A stretch of 62,656 bases of DNA from contig AJFK01000045.1 in the NCBI GenBank assembly GCA_000467715.1, positions 1-62,656 on the forward strand. The letters are read 5' to 3'. A program made the translations under genes and the position numbers. The notes beneath the pieces were generated by a model. That model did no database searches and was not told the DNA's origin. It saw nothing but the letters and a program-made list of their open reading frames with translations. Numbering within the stretch: the first letter of the stretch is position 1; each line of letters starts with the position of its first letter. The DNA comes from Hysterium pulicare CBS 123377 (taxonomy: Eukaryota; Ascomycota; Dothideomycetes; Hysteriales; Hysteriaceae). Of the stretch, positions 18,187 through 38,964 are shown one piece after another.

Positions 18187-19726
18187 ATGGCCCAAACTCA
18201 ATACAGTCCCGAGCAACTCGCGGCATTGAAGGCGGAGAACAAAGACGCAGTCCAATATGGAATTATCATCACCTTCACCCTTTTGTCTCTCATTTGCATC
18301 ATCCTACGCTTCTTTACACGCATCAGATACCTCAGGAATGTTGGTCTTGAAGACTACATCATTGCAGTGGCAATGGTAAGTCACTGTTTCCAAAGACAGC
18401 ATTGTATCGTATAACTGATCTTTTCTCAGTCACTCTCCATCGTCATGGGAGCGTGCCAAATCATGCGTAAGACAGCACTGACCAACTCCCAACGATATCG
18501 TACCCATCTTGCTCACCAGAAGTTAGAGGTCCGTCAGGGCAACGGCCATCATGCCATGTTCCTTTCACTTTCGCAGGCATCAGCTATACTGAAAGTAAGA
18601 AAAATACTTGAAAAGTCCCCCTTTGCATTGCAACTAACATGTTCAGTACCTCTACTGGAGCATTCCCACTTACTGCGCCAGCCTCACTCTCATCAAAATA
18701 TCGATTTTGCTCCAATACCGTCGCATATTCCCGTCGCGTCCAATGAGATGCGCCATCTATATCGCAATGGCGATTGTTATGGCCTATGGCATTGAATCTA
18801 TATGTACTAGCTTCTTCACCTGCACTCCAATCAAAGCTTTCTGGGATTTAACAATGGCGCCAACGGCAAAGAGATGCATTGATGAGCAAGCGTATGTGTC
18901 CAACCTCTCGCGAACCGAATCGCTCTTGGTTATGCTAACATCTTTTCAAAGTCTATGGTATGCCCACGCCGGATTAAACATCTCCACTGATTTATTGGTT
19001 GCGTTGTTACCTATCCGTGCCATCTGGAACTTGCAAATGGCCCAGAAGCAGAAACTAGCTGTGTGTGCTGTTCTATGCCTTGGTGTATTGTACGTAATCT
19101 CATCCCCTCCTACCTTTGCTCTCAACTCTTCGCCATCACAGGTTCACGATATAGTCCACCCACTAACTTGCGAAAACAGCGTCTGTATAGTCTCCATCCT
19201 CCGCCTAAACGCCCTCGTTATCCTCTCCCGCCACCAAGATGACCAAACCTGGTACACGCCCGAAACCGCCTTCTGGTCTAGCATCGAAGTCAACCTCGCC
19301 ATCGTGTGCGCCTGCGCACCCTCCCTAAAACCCCTTGTCATCCGCCTCTTCCCCCGCTTCGGTTCCAGCAAAAACAACACCAGTGGCGGCTACTATGGCA
19401 CCGGCTCCAAGCACTTACGAGTCGGAGGTCAGAAGTCAGACCTCTCCTCTTTCGTGGAGCTGAAAGCCAAGGGCGGTTCCAGCTCCGCCTCCTCCTCTGG
19501 CGATCCGATCCGGAACATGGAGAATGGGCATGGGCATGGTAGGGCTACGTATACGAATGTTACGGCGTTACCGACGCTGAATGCGATGGAGGGCAAGGCG
19601 AGCGATGAGATTCATGTTGTGAGGGAGATTCAGTGGAGTGAGGAGGAGAGCGGGGATTCGAATAGTGCGCATGGGAGTCAGAAGGATCTTGTTCCGTCGT
19701 TCCCCGTGCCTGCAATTCGGAAATAA
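18187..19726 (+). CDS. rhodopsin-domain integral membrane protein (PTH11-related type)
   Basis: Six exons, 18187-18375, 18430-18466, 18527-18594, 18647-18891, 18952-19089 and 19180-19726, give 407 residues. Hydrophobic helices begin at about residue 24 (IIITFTLLSLICIILRFFTR) and continue to about 270, consistent with seven spans. The LEDYIIAVAM segment after helix 1, the QVRQGNGHH loop, LTLIKISILLQYRRIF, TCTPIKAFWD and the WSSIEVNLAIVCACAPSLKP segment near the last helix are the standard landmarks of the fungal rhodopsin-like family (often annotated as integral membrane or PTH11-like). No CFEM cysteine domain precedes the helices. The tail from about 280 is Ser/Gly/His-rich and hydrophilic. 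Receptor-like role is family-level inference; no ligand is known. Confidence 0.9.
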
Positions 19727-22304: not shown

Positions 22305-22894
22305 CGTGGGTGGAGGATGGTGTTTAGGCTGGAAGTGGGAGGATCTGGGAGCGTGTGAGTTGGTTTGGATTTAGGCTTCTTGTTGGATGGAGACTCGCAC
22401 ACAATGTCAAGGCTACGGCTTTATTTCCGCCGATCATGGGCGATGGCGGTCTTGTCGAGGATGCGGAGCTGAAGCAATGAAATGCTTGAAGGCTTGGTTT
22501 GCTGGAAGGTATTTGTCTGCCGAAACATTCATTTAATTCTGGCCGTGAAGAGTCTATTTCGAATCTGCCACTGAACGTTACTAAGATCTGCTTCTCGGGT
22601 TCGGGAAGCTTGCATGTACCCTGCATGCATATCTACCGACCAAGCTTAGCTGCAGAATATAGTCGTCTTTGTAATTGCAGAATGCTCAGTAAGGCGGGTC
22701 AATATTGAACCGTCTGCTAGTAGAATTGAGAATGGTTGTTTATAAGAGACTTTGAGAGAATGGTAGAGGTTGAAGGCAGACGATCATATATCTTCGAAAT
22801 CATCCAGACGCCCAAAAAGCCTCTCAACCCTTGAAATTATTATCAGTAAGTGTTCGCGGCGCACGGCTTCCATGTATATACTTACGAAGTAGAA
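22305..22894. other. divergent intergenic region
   Basis: 590 bases between the DoxX-like and SnoaL-like genes, likely with both promoters. The leader of the downstream gene contains a cag|gtaag-like stretch around 22843, so a 5' leader intron is possible. Nothing else seen. Confidence 0.4.
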
Positions 22895-23305
22895 ATGTCG
22901 TCCTCTTCCGACAACTCGGCCGTAACAAAGCTCCTCCACTCCTACGCATCAGCACTCAACGCATCTAGCGCATCTCAAGTCATGGCTCTCTACGCGAAGG
23001 ATGCAGTTTTCATGCCGCAGAACTTCCCCACCATCGAAGGCTACGATTCTATCAAGGGCACATACGAGAAGATCTTCAGCGCTATAGCTCTTCATGTTTC
23101 GATGGATGTAAAAGAGGTTGTTGTCATGCCTGAAGCGGAGTGGGCATTCGCTCGCACGACTACGGCGGGTACGCAAAAGAATCACGAGACAGGTACTGAG
23201 ACAAAGGAGGGAAACCAGGAACTGTTTGTTTGTAAGAAGGTGGACGGAGAGTGGAAATTAGCGAGATATTGCTTTTGTAGTACCAATCCCCCGAAGGGAG
23301 GTTAG
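22895..23305 (+). CDS. SnoaL/NTF2-fold (DUF4440-like) protein
   Basis: 136 residues in one exon. I use the ATG at 22895 (MSSSSDNSAV); the frame is open 15 codons further upstream without a clear start context. The pattern LLHSYASALNASSASQVMALY then DAVFMPQNFPTIEG, followed by VSMDVKEVVVMPE and KKVDGEWKLARYCF matches SnoaL/DUF4440 proteins with an N-terminal helix pair and a curved sheet. No catalytic residue can be assigned. It is the second member of this fold within 2.5 kb; a third lies at 57.9 kb. Confidence 0.8.
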   Translation: MSSSSDNSAVTKLLHSYASALNASSASQVMALYAKDAVFMPQNFPTIEGYDSIKGTYEKIFSAIALHVSMDVKEVVVMPEAEWAFARTTTAGTQKNHETGTETKEGNQELFVCKKVDGEWKLARYCFCSTNPPKGG

Positions 23306-23578: not shown

Positions 23579-25281
23579 TTACATATGGCCTGCGATGGTC
23601 TCGTCCCACACAGTATGAAAAGTGTTCTCGCAAAACACGGCGTGGGATATGACCCCAACGAGGCTCCCTCTTAAGTCTTCCCAGTTTTGAATCCCAGAAT
23701 CGGAAGCTAGCGCACTAAGGTGCCCCTTGAACCATCGTTTCTCGGGCATCTGATAAGCTGATACCGCCCCCACTGCAAGAAACCAAAGCACGATCTGGTT
23801 GGGCCCCGCCACCAGCGGCAGTAAAGGATGCAACGAAGCTTTGAGCTTATGCACTAATACGCCGACAAGAAGCACAGGATCGGGGAAGAATGCCATCAAT
23901 GGGAATAGTACATGAAGCGCAGCGGCGTACCGGCAGCTTTGCGACATGTGAAATGCAAGGGGCGTATCTACGATTATCTGCATTTGGAAGAGTCGTTGTA
24001 GCAGAGACGACATCTGCTCTAAGGTTGCCAAGCTAACTTCTGCAGATGCGACTTCTGCCATGTCGGAAAATTGGTGGGTGAGCTCGTTTGCTTCGTAAAG
24101 AATATCGACGAGAGGTGGGGCGACACCGGAGTTGTAGAAGATAGTCATGTCCAGAGGTAGCGGAGGGATGATATGGTCGATCCTTGGGTGTTTGAATGTT
24201 AAGGGGAGAGAATCGGGTTCGTTGATTGATACCATCGACATCCTGGACTCATAAGTTCATCCATTCCAAAACCTAACTTCTTCGGAGATACCGAAAAAGA
24301 CTTACCAGAAGGCTATGTTTGCAGCCAGAGCATTTCCGGCAGCAATGGCGTCTAAACCGCCGCGACTTTGAACCATACGTTTCAATCCGCTTATATGGGA
24401 CGAGAGATCCTTCATGTTGCCGCGCTCATGCTATTGAATGACCAAGAGAGATAATTAGGTTGGATCACTGAGGAAGATGAGACTTCATACCTCAATTGCT
24501 ACCAGTATTGCTACTGCTACGATCAATTGATCAGGAATCTGAGCAACGGCTGCGATTTTATTCCGAAGCAAATCCAAAGCTTCCGCTCTGACTTCCAACG
24601 CTTGATAAGTCCCCGTTTCACGTTGCAAAGTTTCCAGGTTATGCGCACTGAGATGCAAAATCACATGGAAGAGTACCTGGTCAGCTCGTAGAAACGGCCA
24701 CCACAGTCGTATTACTGACTCTCCAGTATGGAAGAAAGGAAAAGAGTTATGTACGACGGACGAGAGATCTGATAATGTCAGCGATACTTAAAGCCATAGG
24801 TTCAAGTATAAGGCCTACAGTGTCGGAGTAAAACGTCGATTTTCCTTACTTTACTTGGAGGATATGTTTGGAAGGGATCAATCAATTCGTTTCCAATTGT
24901 CCCCGGTAACCGAATTGGAGGAAGTGAAGCTTGGGGAGTCGATGTCCCAGTATTACTGCTCGAAGTGGTCGCTGTATGTAAATGCCGCGATGGGCGCGAA
25001 GGTAGCGAGGAGCGCGAGGCTGTTGGTTGTGGTGTTTGTCCCGACGGAGCGGGTGGTTCTGGGTCATCGAAGCATCTCTCTAGATTGACGTAGTGGCGTT
25101 CACAATTCCGACAAAGTGGGTGTCTTTCATCGCACTAGACTCAATAAAATCAGCCTGTTATGTGTGAGAGCATGGGCCTGATCGATACCTTTACTTTCCT
25201 TCTTTTGCAGTTGTTACAACCTGCCTTCGACTTCTTGTGGGATCTCGGAGCAACAAGTTGAAGCTGGGGCTGAGAAGACAT
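23579..25281 (-). CDS. Zn2Cys6 transcription factor next to the RiPP precursor
   Basis: Five exons, 25281-25189, 25134-24855, 24768-24491, 24430-24306 and 24242-23579, give 479 residues. The zinc cluster spans residues 22-52: C-x2-C-x6-C-x6-C-x2-C-x9-C (GCNNCKRRKVK then CDERHPLCRNCERHYVNLERC), split by intron 1. A Pro/Ser/Thr-rich linker is followed by an LWWPFLRADQVLFHVILHLSA segment and a long alpha-helical regulatory region of the fungal-specific TF type. The neighbouring intron (86 nt) has a clear GCTGAC branch site, which fixed the frame. It ends about 740 bases from the precursor gene and is the most likely pathway regulator, in the way UstR sits in the ustiloxin cluster. That assignment is by position only. 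Confidence 0.85.
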
Positions 25282-26019: not shown

Positions 26020-27362
26020 TTACTCATTGCTTGGAAGACAGCTCCTCGACCCATCGATGGTTTGCGGATAATCATTGAGCAGCCTTTGGTTTGCCGGTGC
26101 GAGCAAATAACTTATCGGCTGTTTCATCGTCAACTGGGGCGACAGGTACTTGAGCAGTCCTAAACAATGAATCGTATGCTTAAGGAAAAAATCATTCAAC
26201 CTCCCCTTCCCAATATCTATCGCATCCGCCACGAAATCAACGCAATGGTACTGATGCTGACCAGCGAAAGCATACCCATATCCCACCTCGTTCGTCTCTA
26301 CGAGCCCGGGCTCGTCGGCTGTTGGCGTAAAACCGAGCTCCTTTGCCGACTTGGGTTCGCGACCGGTCACCATGAGGTAGTAGTTCAGAATGCTAACGCG
26401 CTCAGCATCGGAGTCGGTGGCGTTGAAGCGCTCTTGTAGCTGGACAGGAATGTGCCATCGGTCCACTACATCGTCACGCGGCTTGGGGGTGAATTCGAAA
26501 AACGCCTTACCTCGCTCCGAGCTCTCGCGCAACGGTTTCCTGCGCATATTGTAGTAGATCCACTCGCGTAACGCCTCCTCATAGCTCTTCTTCTCCTTAT
26601 TCGTCATACCATCCCGCTTGGTGAGTGTGTTCGCCATGCCCGAGGCCGAATCGGCATACCAGTCTGTGTTTGTGTCTTCGGCCCTTTTTTTATGATCGAG
26701 TGATTCCGCCATGCCGGAAGCCGAATCAGCGTACCAGTTGCTATTTTCCACAGTCTCTCGCTCACCAATTGAATCTGCCACACCGGAGGCTGAATCCGCA
26801 TACCAATTGTTGCCTTTGGCGGGCTGCCTTTTATCAAGAGTCTCCACGATCCCGGCAGCAGAATCAGCATACCAGTTGCTATCCTTTGCGGGCTTCCGCT
26901 CGCCAAGCGAATCCGCCACCCCGGAAGCTGAATCCGCATACCAATTGGTATTCTTGGCTTGATTTCGATCTTCCAATGAGTCCGCTACTCCGCTTGCAGA
27001 GTCGGTGTACCAATTGGTCTCCTTGTCACGCTTCTCGTTCGGCAAGGATCCCGCCACTCCGCTCGCAGAATCAGAATACCAATTGGTCTCCACCCCACGT
27101 TTCTCGCCTTGTAGCGTCTCCGCTATTCCGCTTGCAGAATCGGCATACCAGTTTGTTGCATCTTCACGTCGGCCAACGGATTCAGCAACCCCGGCAGCTG
27201 AATCTGCATACCAATTTGTGGCAGCGTCTCGGCCACCTAGTAATGTCAGTCTTCTCTTTCTGTTTGGCCTTAATCGTTGGTCTTACTTGATGCTTTGGTT
27301 GGCAAGCATGAAGCTTTCAACGTCAAGATACCGGCTGCAAAGATCCATAGGTTCTGACCCAT
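26020..27362 (-). CDS. repeat-containing RiPP precursor with C-terminal HxxHC-pair domain
   Basis: Exons 27362-27287 and 27236-26020 give 430 residues. The 50-nt intron has a CTGAC branch site. Residues 1-20 form a secretory signal (MGQNLWIFAAGILTL..). From residue 33 there are nine repeats of 21-25 residues, each with N-W-Y-[A/S/T]-D-S-A-[A/S]-G (the ninth has D for N). About nine residues after the Gly a basic site follows: RR, KR, KR, then weaker single-Arg sites in repeats 4, 5 and 7, with KR/KKR in 6, 8, 9. This is the layout of Kex2-processed dikaritin precursors such as UstA. In the same exon the protein continues about 190 residues to a region with HQYHC at 353-357 and HTIHC at 379-383, as in UstYa/DUF3328, but lacking the later Cys-rich end. 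Family role is inference; the repeats and motifs are read directly. Confidence 0.85.
26625..27290 (-). repeat. nine tandem NWYADSASG-type coding repeats
   Basis: The repeat block lies within the precursor gene. Units are 63-75 nt (mostly 69 nt). The WY dipeptide and the D-S-A core are invariant; the position after Y is A, S or T, and the residue before G is S or A. Between cores the sequence varies apart from a conserved VA[D/E]SL-like helix and the basic site. The antisense strand also looks repetitive and open, which is a mirror effect. Confidence 0.85.
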
Positions 27363-28019
27363 TTTGCGTGGGATGTTAAAGATGAAATGAATCAAGTACT
27401 TGATAAGAACATGCAGTCGGGTTTGATCGACTGGATGCCAGAGAAGTTGCTTCTATCTACGAGAGTCTTGATCCTATTTATCTTTCTCTGCACTTACTAT
27501 GGTCAGCCCGCATCTGTGCCAGCAACAATAGCCAATGGATGTAACTACTACTGCAGGGCATCACATATGCATCCATTTATGCAGCATGATAAGCTCCTCT
27601 GTCTTCTTTCGCATTTCAAGTAGGTGCCAGCCATGTCCAATGCATATAGCCGGACAACTACCTCTCTTTGCATTGGAGGGTCATCACACCAACATATCCG
27701 CCGAGGATGACATCGGTATTTATTTTTCTTGGTTCCAGCCAGGCTGATAGCTAACCAACCGCTTCTTTCTGGATCACCGGATACAGGTTCTCCGTTCTGG
27801 AAAAGGCCGAGCTGTTTTGGGCAGGTGATCGAATCAACCGCAAGCTACTGATACCAGTCACAATAGATGCACCAACTGCATTCCTCCATGCATCACTCAT
27901 CACATATCATAAAATCATTTTCAATCACTTCGCGCTGTTATTTACGACTAGGTTAATCCTCTTCCTGCCTGTAGACTTTCAGAGCCAACCTTACTTTTGC
28001 AATTCTGTTTCGACATACA
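27363..28019. other. shared divergent promoter of precursor and UstYa
   Basis: 657 bases between two start codons on opposite strands, without an ORF I can support. It is the natural place for pathway-specific binding sites. I could not identify a palindromic CGG pair with confidence. Confidence 0.5.
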
Positions 28020-29052
28020 ATGTCTCACCTCAACGAGCCCCTCTTGACTCCCTTCCTTAAAACGGAGGAGTGGAACAATGAGGCTAGAAGCTCTACCGAA
28101 AGCCAGTACCAGGCCCTACCTCGCTCACAACCTCGTCGACACCACAGCCGCACATATCAAAGTTTGGTTGCTGTCGGTATTTTGGTGGTTCTTCTCTTTG
28201 GTTTTGGGGTTGGTTACTACCTGCGAGACCTGATCTCGGCGTATACGCACGTACCCTGGTCAGGATCTGCCGGACCGTCCGATGGTAGGGCTCCGTCCCG
28301 CAATCTGATGCAGAACGATCACGAAACTGACCAATCAATGTGAAACCATAGTGTCGCTTGTCTCTCAGACATTCGAAGAGCAGCCAGTTTACTCAAGGCC
28401 CCCGTCGAATGCATCCGACGCTGCTTGGGCCGCTATGATTCCCAGTCCGTCTCCGTTGCATATGCAAAATATTTATTTGCTTACATCGACAGAGGGACGA
28501 GGCTTTGTGAAAGTCAAGGATAGCGATCCTGATGAAGGCACCGACGGTCTCTATTGCGTTTCCGTCTTTCATCAACTGCACTGCTTGGTACGCTCTCCCT
28601 TCGCGCTTCCTGCTTCTTTTCAGGAGGATTCCCGTACATGCATAGCGGACTTCGCTTGAGATTAAAGAGGATCTCGTTCCTGACCCCTCGGCTGATATCT
28701 ATCCCCACAGGATATGCTTCGTCATGGATATTATGCCGCAGTTAACAGGGCGAATGCAAAGCCTACACCTGTGGCCCCAGACGGTGGTCCAGTGTCGCCC
28801 GTGCCGGGAGATTTTGCTCACCATTCCACGGCTAAAATTCATTATGAGCAGGGTGCCAGTCACATGGAGCATTGCTTTGATTACCTCAGACAAGCTCTAG
28901 CATGTGCAGCTGACTCCACGCTAGAGAAAAGGAATGATACCATCAGTGGAGTTAGAGGCTGGGGTACTACCCACCAATGCCGTAATTTTGAAGGCTTGAA
29001 AAAATGGACTGAAGATCACAGGTACAGTGATGATAACGGTATTTCCAACTAG
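28020..29052 (+). CDS. UstYa-family (DUF3328) oxidase
   Basis: Exons 28020-28284, 28352-28587 and 28711-29052 give 280 residues. A hydrophilic N-terminus with Arg/His is followed by one membrane helix at about 48-68, so the catalytic part is lumenal, as in UstYa. HQLHC is at 162-166 and HMEHC at 218-222, followed by FDYLRQALACAADSTLE, the two metal-binding motifs and downstream Cys/Asp segment that define the family. UstYa-type proteins install the oxidative crosslinks in dikaritin RiPPs, and some act in other pathways. Its start is divergent from the precursor gene, and it converges with the P450 (stops 95 bases apart). The intron after CL of HQLHCL is typical of the family. I rate the family call as secure and the substrate as inferred. 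Confidence 0.93.
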
Positions 29053-29147: not shown

Positions 29148-31065
29148 TTATGCTAAATCCTTTGGGTAGGCAGCTCTCATGCCTTCAGGAATGTTTTTCC
29201 ATTGCATGGTTTCAGGGTCCAGTTGCTCTCTTATAGCATCGTCCCATTCTTGGCACACCATTTCTGCCCTCTTGTCGTCTCTGGGGGTAATGATGGCATC
29301 GAAAGGCACCGGTGCACACACAAACCCTTGTGTGACCTTTTCAGGATCTGGTACAATCTCATTCCCCGCCTCATCACTGGTTCTCTTGAGGTCGAAAGCC
29401 CAAAGCATCCTAGCAATGCCCAGAAACAAGCTCCGCTCCGCTACATGCATGCCAGGACATATGCGCCTCCCAGCACCAAATGTAAAATGGTCCCGTTTGG
29501 TCACATCCGGATTTAGCGCAGCATCAAATGCGGACTGGCTGTCGTCCCTGAACCGTTCGGGCTCAAACCGCCGAGGCTCTGGATATCGCAACGGATCATT
29601 GTGGATCGCGTAAACGTTGTTCAATATGCCGGCGCCCTTCGGCAGACGGTAGCCCATGTATTCGTCATCCCTCATCAGAGCATGTGGAACAGCGCCTAGA
29701 ATGGTGGTCGGCATCCAACGCAACGACTCCTTTACGCAGCCACGGATATAGGGCAATTGAGCCTCATCATTTGTTGTTGGCATTCTGCCCGAGCCAACGA
29801 TACGATCCAACTCCTCCTGCGCCCGTTTCTGCACTTCCGGAAAGACAAGCATCGCGCATACAAATCCGACGAGCGTGTTCGCAGTCGTATCGCTTCCAGC
29901 CTCCAATAGTGTGCCAGTTATGTACGCTGCTTGGTCGTCTGAGAAGCGATGCATGGCCTGCTCCCGTGCTAGACCGACGCTGAAGCTAGGGTTGGCGCGG
30001 AGTATCGCAGATGAGATGGTGGCCTTGGCCTTGTCCCAGTGGTATCGGTAGAGAGCCTTTTCTCGCAGGTGCAGCGCTTTGGCGCGGCGCTTGGGGGGAA
30101 GCATCCATGATGGGAGGATGCGGAGTGCGGGCAGGTAGTCAAGTAGGGCAGCGGTGCCGGTTTGAGCGAGGAGAGTGAATTCGCCGAAGATGCTGAAGAG
30201 AGCTTGGAGGTGTATATCTTCATAGGTTGGAGTGCGGAAGCTAAAGAGATGAATGAGCACTTTGGCTAAGCAGTGGTAGATAGTAGAGAATGTGCTTACC
30301 CAAATGTTGTTGCAGTAGTTAGCGAGTTGGCGTAGCGGCGGACGGGTTTTTTGAAGTTCTCAGGGTCCTTCAAGATGTCGTACATCATTTGTTTGTTCTC
30401 GAGGAGTTGATAGGGCTCAAACGAGCGGGCAGCGTGGATATTCAGGAGATTATGGACGATTCGTCGAATCTATTCTGTTCGTAAGTTCCTATTTCTCAGG
30501 GCTATTGCAACTTGGTCCAGACATACCATTCGCCATGTTTGCCCGTATCGCTTGTTAACAAGTCATTTCAGTGATCAGTTCATCTCTGGCATCTACCCTT
30601 TCATGTTCGTTGTTCTTACCATCATGAGAATCCTCAATCCTCCACTTAGGAGTGTCTGACCCATATACAAATCCATTCTATCACTATATATGGCGCTTCT
30701 GCGGTCCAAGAGATCTTTGATAGCTTGGTCGCTCGATAAGACAACCATCGTTTTGCTCCCTAACATCAAGCTGTACACTGGTCCATATTCCCGCGCCCAC
30801 TTCTGAAATTGCAGATGCACATCTTCTTTCGGAATCTGAAGACTAGTCAACGTGACATTCGAACTCCAGAAAATAGCCCTTCATCTCTCCGAAAGGGTAC
30901 ATGTTCCAAGCCCCTCACCTGATGAATGTTTCCTAGTATCGGTATAGTTGGCGGACCTGGAGGGAAATCTTGAGGCCGCCGCCCAACTTGCAGCAGTCGC
31001 CAAACTTGATACAATAATGAGACCAGCAGCAGGGCCAGGATTGTGAAGTTGATGGGATTCTCCAT
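29148..31065 (-). CDS. cytochrome P450, membrane anchored
   Basis: Five exons, 31065-30919, 30835-30620, 30550-30527, 30469-30300 and 30240-29148, give 549 residues. An N-terminal helix (about residues 5-22) is followed by the Pro-rich PPGPPTIPILGNIHQ hinge. The I-helix has EAGSDTT at about 299-305, the ExxR motif is KESLRW at about 355-360, and the heme loop FTFGAGRRICPG has its Cys near residue 447. One exon is only 24 nt. It resembles class II fungal P450s of the O-methylsterigmatocystin-oxidoreductase style, and the ustiloxin cluster has a P450 (UstC) at a comparable place. It converges with UstYa. Oxidation of the peptide product is the likely role but inferred from the neighbourhood. 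Confidence 0.93.
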
Positions 31066-31908
31066 TGTCCTTTGTCCTGTGCGCTGCTGAAAATTTGCTA
31101 AACGAATCGAAAGAGCACATTCACTGTGAAAAGAATCCCTTGCATGGACATAACCTCCAATTTAGAAATATCAGGAGATGCCATGCCGATCAATTTTTCA
31201 AATTCGAATGGGACGTTTCGATAGACTGTAGTGCTTGGACCTGTGGGTAGGGCAGGACAGGACCGTGCTGCATGTAGGATCCCGCTCGCCGGACTTTCCT
31301 GTTATCAAACTCATGCGACCACGGCATCTCCTTACCCTCAGCATGCATGTGAGACTTTCGGTTACAGTATAGCTGCAATGGACAAGAAGTGCATAGAACG
31401 GTGCAATTGACCCAATTAGGTCCGAGTATCCTTATGATGAACTCCGATGCATCATGCAGCGGCTGTAAGAAATGCCGTCTCTAAGGCACCAACGGGATTT
31501 GTTATTTAGATTGCCAGAATCCAAAGCTATGTTTCCGGCAAAATAAATCCGTATGAGGGCTGAGGGATTTCATACCCCAGACGCCGTCAGCAGCGAACCT
31601 AGCTAATACCCCAGTATCAAAAGAACGGGCGATTTATATGCAAGGCGCAAGGCAAACGCATATGCGGGCTGACTGGAATGGAACTCTGAGACTTTTTGTC
31701 ATTTATGGTTATTGCAAATTCTGTTGCGGAATTATGTGAACGCCCAAGACCAAGATTGAAACGGGATGCAATCCAACAAATATGCTTAAACGGTGCCAAG
31801 ATGTCACGAGCTCTATTTGACTTCCAGGATTGAGGGCAACATGGCCTACGCTGTGTCGAAACTGAATAGGAAACGATGATCAGAACCTCGGGTGCCGCCC
31901 TTGTGTTC
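31066..31908. other. region between P450 and MFS
   Basis: 843 bases with only short frames on both strands, none recognisable. Contains the P450 promoter and the MFS 3' end. Confidence 0.45.
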
Positions 31909-33622
31909 CTAATTTGTCTGGAATTTGAGTCTTCCACTCCATATCCTCATTCGCTTGCCCCACACTTGGAGTATCAAAACCAGTGCAAATGCGCCAGCTA
32001 CAATGGCCGCCTGAACACCAAAGCTATTTTTTGGACCCATGGCCTTTGCCCACTTCACTTGCTCATACGTGACCACAAACCCGCCCGTGGTTCTGGCGAA
32101 GTTCAACCACGCCGACACTTCGCCAGAGGCCTCGGGATAGGAGTCGAGCACATAGGCGTTAAGTCCCACAGTACTGACCATAATTCCGAAAACGTAGAGA
32201 CCCCATGCAAGAGCGCACACCATGTAATGGTAGGCGTTCTGCAGCGAGAAACCAAGCAAAACAAGGCCGGCAATCATGAAGGGAGTCGCGAGCCAGATGA
32301 CCCAGAGGCGAGCCTCGGGCTCAAGGGAGCCCTTGTTGCGGCCCATCCAGAATGTTGCATTTGCGTCATGGAGCCAGTGACCCGATACTTCTCCCAATAT
32401 CGTCGCGACGATGGGAGTGAAGTAGAAGTAGCCTGTACTTGCGTTAGTTATTGGCCCAGCTGGTATGTATCATTGTAGTCAGACTTACCAATTTGAGTTG
32501 GGCCAAAGTTATACAATGGCTGGAGGAAGATGCTGAGAGTGGTGTTGATACCTATGATTGATCAGCTTCGGACTTCGAGCAAACGAACTGGCCTAAGACT
32601 TACCTACGACCCAAGCGAAGATGAAGACATAGTAAGCAGTGCTGATCAAAACGACTGGCTTGCATATTGCCTTGGCAGGACGGGATATGGCACCTATGAA
32701 TGAGTTGCGCTGATGACGGGACTTCCACTGCTCAATGCCAATCAAGCGTTGGATGCGTGACTTGCGAACTGGTTGCTCGTTCTCAGGAATTCGCCTATCA
32801 TAATATGTTTCCTCCGCGACCAAAATAATGGCGATGAGGCAGAGGCCGTGAAGGAGGGTCGACAGCCAGAAAGCCCAGTTCCATTTATACTTCGCAATGA
32901 TGAACGCAGTAAGAAGTGGACCAAGATACGGCGACAGAACAATGAAGAATGACCAGATGTTGATTTTCCGCGCGTGTTCGTGGACGAAAAACATGTCATT
33001 GATGAAGATCAGACCGCCTCCTTGCGCAACGGTCGAGAAGAACCCGCCAAGGATACGCGCAGTCATGAACTGTTCGAATGTTGCTGGTGCCGCACACCAG
33101 GCAATCGACCAAAGTGCCATGACGATAAACCAAAAGAGTACAGGTAGACGCCCGAAATAGGCCATCAAGGCGACGACGACTACGCCACCGGCGCCCAACA
33201 TGAACAGGTTCCCTACCAGGGCTTCGAGCATGCCATCTTGTGTCTTGCCGAACTCTATCGATTGAGGGATCAGAGTCACAGCGCCGATGGACGACGAGAA
33301 ATCTGGGAGGAACGCTGCCGCCGAGATAACGAACAGGATCGAATTTTTCTTGAATCTGGACCAGTTCAGGGGATCATCCTTCGCATCACTTGGTTGAGGT
33401 ATTCTGCATGGCTATGAGCATAACAAACGTGGTCCGGCATGGGCATTGTCTCACATACAGGACTGTCTTCCCATCTGGGGTCGTCTTCAGGTGCTCAGCA
33501 CCGCTTCTCGACGCATCCAAGGCATACCCAGAGAGCGACTGAAGGGACCTTTCGCTTGATACGAGTGTAGAGGCAACTTCGGTAGTCGCAATCTTCTCAT
33601 CGCCTGCTGCGGAGAAAGACAT
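31909..33622 (-). CDS. MFS transporter (DHA1-like)
   Basis: Exons 33622-33459, 33403-32604, 32551-32489 and 32432-31909 give 516 residues. A hydrophilic N-terminus is followed by DDPLNWSRFKKN, then about 12 hydrophobic spans. The GALVxNLFMLGAGGVV, ARILGGFFSTVAQGGG and FFIVLSPYLGPLLTAFI segments are drug:H+ antiporter-like landmarks, and NWAFWLSTLLHG is typical of the region after the fifth helix. It runs in the same direction as the P450, and neighbouring transporter genes are common in peptide clusters. The substrate is not determined by sequence. I chose the internal ATG at 33622, since the further upstream frame is a different composition. Confidence 0.9.
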
Positions 33623-37537: not shown

Positions 37538-38964
37538 ATGTCGTCTGAAGCCGTTTCGCTCATTGACGAGCTCTCGTCCCTCTCAAAGCAACCAGACTTC
37601 GAGTCCGATGTTGCGGCGCAAGCAAAAGCGCTACATCTAAGCAAGCAGATTACTGGCAAGCTTCAGAAGCCGGAGGATGCGGCGATTGAGCTATGCTTCT
37701 ATGTACGATTGAACCGCAATACGCTTTTCATAAAACCACGACTAAGATTTTGTAACCGCAGCCAACATTCGCGCTCGCCGCTCGTATCGCCATTGACATG
37801 AAACTATTCAACTTGATAGCGGCCACTTCAAGCCCAATGTCAGCTGCTGACCTTGCGGCCGAGTCGGGCGGGGCAGATTCTCTGATAAGTGCGGCACAGT
37901 ACCTTCTCACTTATCGAGCCGGGGATGAGCAGAACTGACAATTCTCAACCGACACAGCCCGCATCTTACGACCTCTCGCAACTCTAGGCTTCGTGAACGA
38001 AGTCAGCGAAAACAGATGGACTGCGACTCCGATTACCAAAGTCATGAGCGCCCCACCTATCCAAGCCGCTCACATTCACTTGTTAGTAATTCATGTTGTC
38101 TACCTAGATTGTCTCTTCTGAAATCGATTCCTTAGCTGGGACCAGGGCAATAGAGCCATGGTCCAGATGCCCTCGTTCTTTAAGGAACGTGGCTACCGCC
38201 AGCCCGAAGACCCGATGAAGGGCGTACTGCAATACGCTTTTGGCACCGACAAGGAGGCCTTCGACTACTGGCACAATACGCCTGAGATCCTAGACAACTT
38301 CAACACATTCATGACGGGGAACCGGGGGTCGCGGCCTAGCTGGGTCGAGTGGTGGCCGGTTGAAAAGCAGCTCTTCGAAGGCGTGGAGCTAGAGGAGAAT
38401 GGGGTTTTACTAGTGGATGTGGCAGGTGGCCGTGGACACGATGTCCAGTCTTTCAAGAAAAGATTCCCGAATAAGAACGGAAAACTGGTGGTGGAAGATT
38501 TGCCGGTAGTTATTGACGATATCAACGAGTTGGATGAAGGGATTGAAAGGGTCAAGTACGACTTTTTCACACCGCAGCCCATCAAAGGTAGGCAAGGAAA
38601 GCTTCCACTCCTGAGGCTATTACGGGCTTGCTTATATCAGTTATGAACAGGCGCCCGGATTTACTTCTTCCACTTCATTATGCATGACTGGTCCGATGAT
38701 GTTTGCCTCAAAATCATAACTCAAACCACCATGGCTATGAGAAAGGGGTATTCCAAGCTCTTGCTCAACGAGTTCATTCTTCCCAACCAGGGCTGTCCGT
38801 TGTTCCCATCCGGGATGGATCTCGAGATGATGACCATGCACGCTGGACAAGAGAGGACGGAAAGTCAATGGAAGGGGTTGTTGAACAAGGCAGGCTTGAA
38901 AGTTAACAGGTTCTGGATCCCCGAGAGTGGAGGCGAAGGCATTGTGGAAACTGAGTTAATGTAG
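37538..38964 (+). CDS. SAM-dependent O-methyltransferase (fungal OMT type)
   Basis: Exons 37538-37702, 37762-37888, 37958-38081, 38136-38587 and 38651-38964 give 393 residues. An N-terminal helical dimerisation part (about 50-140, with ILRPLATLGFVNEV) precedes the SAM-binding loop VDVAGGRG at about 232-239 and VVEDLPVVI. The IYFFHFIMHDWSDD segment has the catalytic-base His at about 301, followed by LLNEFILP and the GMDLEMMTMHAGQERTESQW stretch. This is the plant COMT-like fold used for small phenolic or peptide products. In the cluster it could methylate a phenol or carboxylate after cross-linking, but its membership is inferred from position. The Tyr ending exon 1 leads into PTFALAAR, a typical splice position in this family. 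Confidence 0.92.

Follow-up and report, generated by a model that had tools for sequence, protein, structure and literature searches.

The repeat precursors of the dikaritins (Kex2 repeat precursors) and the DUF3328 enzymes have been described as products of separate, neighboring genes (PMC7329392, PMC12048977), with a mean precursor–DUF3328 distance of 3.09 genes in one of these accounts (PMC7329392). CctR, a DUF3328 enzyme, was measured to carry two coppers per monomer; it needs O2, and its activity is reported as lost when conserved His and Cys residues are replaced by alanine (PMC12435403). An AlphaFold model of CctR has the HxxHC motifs on adjacent helices, and the enzyme acts as a dimer that is held by C-terminal disulfides, with the lumen of an organelle as its proposed location (PMC12435403). 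ApnU and AprY are likewise described as copper-, O2- and dimer-dependent (PMC12435403), and copper use by DUF3328 enzymes is also stated in PMC12874468. CctR and similar enzymes are membrane proteins and hard to purify; ApnU and AprY needed refolding (PMC12435403). In plants, both fused and split copper cyclases are described for the burpitides (PMC12186524).

Here we analyzed a gene of Hysterium pulicare CBS 123377 that joins a repeat precursor to a domain with two HxxHC motifs. The window is the whole stretch of DNA under analysis, 62,656 nt of contig AJFK01000045.1 read on the forward strand, and all coordinates are positions in it. Like the described dikaritins (ustiloxin, phomopsin, asperipin-2a), the protein has a signal-peptide-like start, repeated aromatic cores, dibasic linkers and a UstYa gene next door; unlike them, it carries the DUF3328-like domain inside the precursor rather than on a separate gene (PMC7329392, PMC12048977). 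The domain shares with CctR, AprY and ApnU an HxxHC(x)nHxxHC pair, a presumed lumenal placement and motifs modeled on two successive helices, and differs from them in having no transmembrane anchor and no C-terminal Cys part, in scoring below the Pfam cut-off, and in lying behind repeats (PMC12435403). A precursor and a copper cyclase in one polypeptide, often multicore, are also described for plant AhyBURP and KjaBURP, which are called autocatalytic (PMC12186524). The BURP cyclases differ in that they are plant proteins with another domain, which has its own CH-repeat motif (PMC12874468).

Among fungal RiPPs, the borosins, such as omphalotin, are described as having enzyme and core in one protein. 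There the N-methyltransferase stands ahead of the core, and Kex2 repeats and an HxxHC pair are absent. We read the H. pulicare protein as a dikaritin-type precursor with its own DUF3328/UstYa-like copper domain, which would modify the attached repeats in cis before their release by Kex2, and we hold the chances of this reading to be about evenly balanced.

The fused gene and its repeat array

The gene lies on the minus strand (26020..27362), and its model has an ATG at 27362-27360 and two exons encoding 430 aa. Exon 1 (27287..27362, minus strand) encodes the signal-peptide-like N-terminus MGQNLWIFAAGILTLKASCLPTKAS. The window protein and nine relatives have hydrophobic 11-mers close to the N-terminus, in a count made without a control comparison. 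This hydrophobic start may be a signal peptide, and the product would be a secreted-type protein. An intron of 50 nt inferred from the sequence (27237..27286, minus strand; GTAAGA...CTGAC...TTACTAG) has GT-AG ends and a CTGAC branch-like site. Exon 2 of the model (26020..27236, minus strand) is open throughout its 1,217 nt, across both array and domain, in agreement with the uninterrupted exon of about 1.2 kb proposed earlier. It encodes a nine-repeat array of the form [N/D]WYxDSA[S/A]G (aa 33-233; 26614..27216, minus strand), which ends in a KR site (aa 232-233), and then the conserved, UstYa-like C-terminal domain of ~197 residues (aa 234-430; 26023..26613, minus strand). Within the domain lie motif 1, HQYHC (aa 353-357; 26242..26256, minus strand), and motif 2, HTIHC (aa 379-383; 26164..26178, minus strand). 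The original prediction had the nine repeats, the invariant WY and both motifs exactly in place. Its main claim, that repeats and an HxxHC-pair domain occupy one polypeptide, is confirmed from the gene model, and the architecture recurs in other fungi. A protein search of the H. pulicare assembly found a single copy of the C-terminal domain.

The nine repeats start at aa 33, 54, 77, 100, 123, 146, 169, 192 and 217, all contain WY, and read [N/D]WY(A/S/T)DSA(S/A)G... in the window. The asperipin-2a core is FYYTGY. The WYxDSA core also differs from the YXIX given in PMC7329392. Comparison of the WYxDSA codons among the nine repeats gave a mean difference of 80% at synonymous sites versus 3% at non-synonymous sites, which argues that the array is old, translated and under selection. 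KR or RR is found in 6/9 linkers, so the description of the repeats as kexin-type holds for these six and fails for the other three. The linkers without KR/RR are those after repeats 4, 5 and 7 (array 26614-27216, minus strand), and some cores may therefore leave as linked units or via another protease.

A total of 165 repeats were counted in 31 members of the family described below. Because these repeats were mostly chosen by the WY pattern itself, the constancy of WY is partly by construction. This does not apply to the residues after WY, where D is present in 158/165 repeats, S in 160/165 and A in 151/165. KR or RR stands at the boundary between array and domain in 29 of the 31 members, as compared with 90 of 134 internal linkers; the boundary KR of four terminal linkers was read by eye, since the script did not find the linker end. 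Core sequence varies by clade, with PWYRDSA and IWYKTAPA, for example, in diverged members that have the same domain behind the repeats. Cores including IWYKTAPAA, PWYRDSA and similar ones were seen in the relatives P0116, P0118, P0119, P0023 and P0126. These differing core types on one domain hint at a diversified product family.

The conserved family and its UstYa neighbor

A search with the C-terminal part as query returned 22 proteins with identities of 57-87%, some from Dothideomycetes such as Zopfia and Trypethelium, others from Sordariomycetes such as Biscogniauxia. Every one of them has one or more WY repeats ahead of the domain (23/23 with the window protein included). A profile search added 26 further relatives, with identity down to 43-48% over the aligned part, for a family of 49 members (the window protein and 48 relatives). 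In-frame WY repeats are present in 30 of these, the other 19 being predicted proteins without one. The two motifs, HQxHC and HxxHC, are exactly 26 residues apart in 45/49 members, and the remaining four are incomplete at that place. Identity to the window protein is 57-86% for the domain versus 40-64% for the rest of the protein, the domain being the higher in 22/22 relatives. These data show that the fused architecture is a conserved family in other fungi. They also speak against the earlier suggestion that the domain is degenerate or non-catalytic. Degeneration is unlikely because the motifs are intact in 45 of 49 members, their spacing is fixed and the domain is better conserved than its surroundings; moreover, the family keeps exactly those HxxHC His and Cys residues that CctR needs, which makes loss of function unlikely.

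Next to the fused gene, and divergently transcribed from it, is a stand-alone UstYa gene (28020..29052, plus strand; 280 aa), with a shared upstream region of 657 bp between the two (27363..28019). Its exons (about 28020-28284, 28352-28587 and 28711-29052) depend on splice sites picked by eye among several in-frame options. The UstYa protein has an N-terminal TM-like stretch and the motifs HQLHC and HMEHC, and scored 92.3 bits to PF11807 in a search of its own genome. At least 43 exon-level PF11807 (UstYa) matches, on many contigs, were seen in the whole assembly, which suggests a large DUF3328 repertoire in H. pulicare.

Three further genes are presumed to belong to the cluster. A cytochrome P450 gene (29148..31065, minus strand) matches PF00067 (E 6.3e-53 on 29148-30359); its 5' exons were placed by eye, and exon 30847-31161 alone had no Pfam match. 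An MFS transporter gene (31909..33411, minus strand) matches PF07690 (E 2e-20 on 32593-33411), with no Pfam match for exon 31909-32469 alone. On the other side lies a gene for a Zn2Cys6 transcription factor (23579..25281, minus strand; PF00172, E 3.1e-7), for which the N-terminus was spliced by hand with the start at 25281; exons 23579-24256 and 24802-25134 alone gave no Pfam match. Elsewhere in the window are a fungal rhodopsin-domain membrane protein (18638-19726, plus strand; PF20684, E 7.6e-49), a small SnoaL-like protein near the cluster (22850-23305, plus strand; PF13577, E 1.7e-8) and an O-methyltransferase-like fragment (38122-38646, plus strand; PF00891) that falls just below the Pfam cut-off (22.1 versus 22.3 bits).

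In eight named fungi, the fusion and a relative of the neighboring UstYa are on the same contigs, as judged by contigs of identical size. These pairs represent 8/22 fusion matches, 8/11 of those on contigs >100 kb, and 8/15 of the best UstYa relatives. The two locus tags of a pair differ by one or two numbers in three cases, and in the other five they are widely separated. There is good support for the fusion and UstYa genes being carried together, with gene order read in the window only.

The fused domain and UstYa differ after motif 2. We compared the family with 87 UstYa relatives, 81 of which have both motifs. A Cys follows motif 2 by 5-15 residues in all 81, whereas 38 of 45 family members lack Cys altogether beyond motif 2. 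Six of the other seven have Cys only at least 20 residues past motif 2, and P0131 has one at 15 in a tail that is otherwise diverged. The Cys/Asp end noted as missing from the window protein is thus missing from most of the family. Given that CctR, ApnU and AprY are described as needing dimerization (PMC12435403), a domain without these cysteines could be a non- or half-catalytic partner, which docks or heterodimerizes with the stand-alone UstYa and brings it the repeats, while the trans enzyme does the chemistry. The divergent UstYa gene next door and the eight UstYa relatives that share contigs with the fusion are consistent with this idea, and since a trans-acting UstYa is present, catalysis by the fused domain is not required. 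Yet the 45 members with both motifs covered retain the full set of four His and two Cys, which would be needless for pure docking, and 3/11 fusion matches on large contigs have no UstYa partner among the matches listed, in a search that was not exhaustive. We judge a partner role of this kind to be unlikely, if well worth considering. The complete motif pair favors a tethered oxidase, and the missing C-terminal Cys and the linked UstYa favor a partner; both readings fit the data.

Relationship of the C-terminal domain to UstYa

The recurrent Pfam match of the family was PF11807 (UstYa/DUF3328), for which the Pfam cut-off is 25 bits. It was found in 14/23 members at E<=1 (best E 1.6e-4), and at E<=0.1 in 9/10 and 5/6 further members in two sets; P0120 and P0118 had no UstYa match in Pfam at E<=0.1. 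The window protein and its domain scored 12.4-14.3 bits and matched relatives 13.1-21.4 bits, below the cut-off in every row with bits shown. The match to DUF3328/UstYa anticipated in the original prediction therefore recurs across the family at sub-threshold strength. DUF6348 (11/23 members, best 1.3e-9) was tentatively put down to repetitive sequence and in P0001 falls on the repeats; DUF7462 and DUF7178, which ranked above UstYa in P0119, were set aside on the same grounds.

Could the HxxHC pair be a look-alike? The domain might then be an unrelated metal-binding or metal-structured one, such as a zinc-stabilized follower or chaperone. Several comparisons leave room for this. A family-versus-UstYa alignment by hhalign was weak (P about 0.002; probability 12-13% local and 0.1% global), the Pfam scores are below the cut-off, and no positive UstYa HMM score remained for the family once the motif residues were masked. 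With motifs in place, the local UstYa HMM gave a family mean of 3.8 bits (44/49 members), and single motif-keeping shuffles reached up to 16.8 bits versus 12.5 for the best real sequence. When columns were shuffled with the motifs kept, 5/300 and 12/300 shuffles were at or above the real family mean (44/49 members), a result that marks similarity beyond the motifs as marginal and yet also speaks against a mere look-alike. Other observations argue for kinship. Motif 1 has the UstYa form HQxHC, the Gln being common to both, and the hhalign alignment also pairs GF and a Tyr ahead of motif 1. The window protein's PF11807 match spans only the surroundings of motif 1; in 8/9 matched members of the ten-member set, the UstYa match is co-linear to profile position 170-173, past motif 2. 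In addition, a true UstYa is part of the same presumed cluster as the fused gene. On balance, an unrelated domain appears improbable.

Motif spacing is compatible with UstYa. From start to start, the motifs are 26 residues apart in the fused domain and 56 in the neighboring UstYa, so the spacing is indeed the shorter, as first noted. Its reading as a sign of decay is not upheld, since spacing ranges from 24 to 106 in the 81 UstYa relatives and 26 lies within this range.

The AlphaFold model of the fused domain is of low confidence (pLDDT 52.6, pTM 0.35), perhaps because it was built from 23 similar sequences, out of 49 members known. In this weak model, one helix has motif 1 close to its start, and the following helix has motif 2 a few residues in. 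The stand-alone UstYa model (pLDDT 74.4) also has its motifs on two successive helices, preceded by strands that the domain model lacks, a difference that would fit an unrelated domain. At this confidence, any resemblance to the fold of the UstYa at 28020 would extend to the placement of the motifs and not to the strands before motif 1. A search of the PDB with the UstYa model yielded no structural match at E<=0.001, so a solved counterpart might be missing even for a good domain model; by sequence, the UstYa profile matched nothing in the PDB below E 0.37 and the fused profile nothing below 0.4.

We consider the domain likely, not proven, to be homologous to UstYa, because the similarity is driven mainly by the motifs; the link is suggestive. 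In view of the sub-cut-off scores, the motif-driven similarity, the loss of Cys and the weak model, we call the domain UstYa-like without assigning it to the family. What stands of the proposed UstYa-like HxxHC-pair domain is both motifs and a recurrent PF11807 match; what is missing is a score above the cut-off and the C-terminal Cys, and similarity beyond the motifs is marginal. That the fusion is a gene-prediction artifact or hides a missed intron, with array and domain as separate proteins, is highly improbable: the 19 predicted proteins without an in-frame WY repeat would fit it, but the raw DNA of the gene has one open exon through array and domain, the same single protein is found in relatives from several species and annotation sources, and the boundary residues between array and domain align and are conserved across relatives.

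Proposed action and significance of the fused precursor

For a precursor that oxidizes its own repeats, we infer the following course, in which copper, catalysis in cis, the type of reaction and the order of steps are all provisional. The precursor would enter the ER via its putative signal peptide. There, the two HxxHC motifs on successive helices would coordinate a copper centre like that of DUF3328 enzymes. In the ER/Golgi, the domain would oxidatively modify the tethered WYxDSA cores while they are still attached, the most likely reaction being a cross-link or C-H oxidation at the Trp-Tyr pair. The trans-acting UstYa and the neighboring P450 may add further oxidations. Kex2 would then cut the conserved KR between array and domain as well as the dibasic linkers, and the peptides would exit by the secretory pathway or the MFS transporter. 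More broadly, there may be a widespread, so far undescribed class of self-modifying fungal RiPPs, in which the substrate repeats are followed by a soluble dicopper domain that is DUF3328-like but has none of the usual C-terminal Cys; Kex2 would remove this domain once it has acted, and a separate membrane UstYa would work next to it. This generalization is tentative, with doubt slightly to the fore.

In the literature, covered incompletely and largely at title and abstract level, we found no description of a repeat-precursor/DUF3328-like fusion, and a search with the letters of the core sequence gave only matches unrelated by title. In one survey of repeat proteins, the initial analysis did not include their C-terminal part (PMC6339444). 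Because of that initial omission, and because UstYa matches fall below the cut-off in every row with bits shown, this class would be one that genome mining can miss. If the proposed reading is correct, the family would be to fungi what the fused BURP cyclases are to plants, which would suggest that the two groups arrived at fused precursors independently. With its DUF3328-like domain soluble and built in, such a precursor would also provide a self-contained system for studying copper peptide oxidation.
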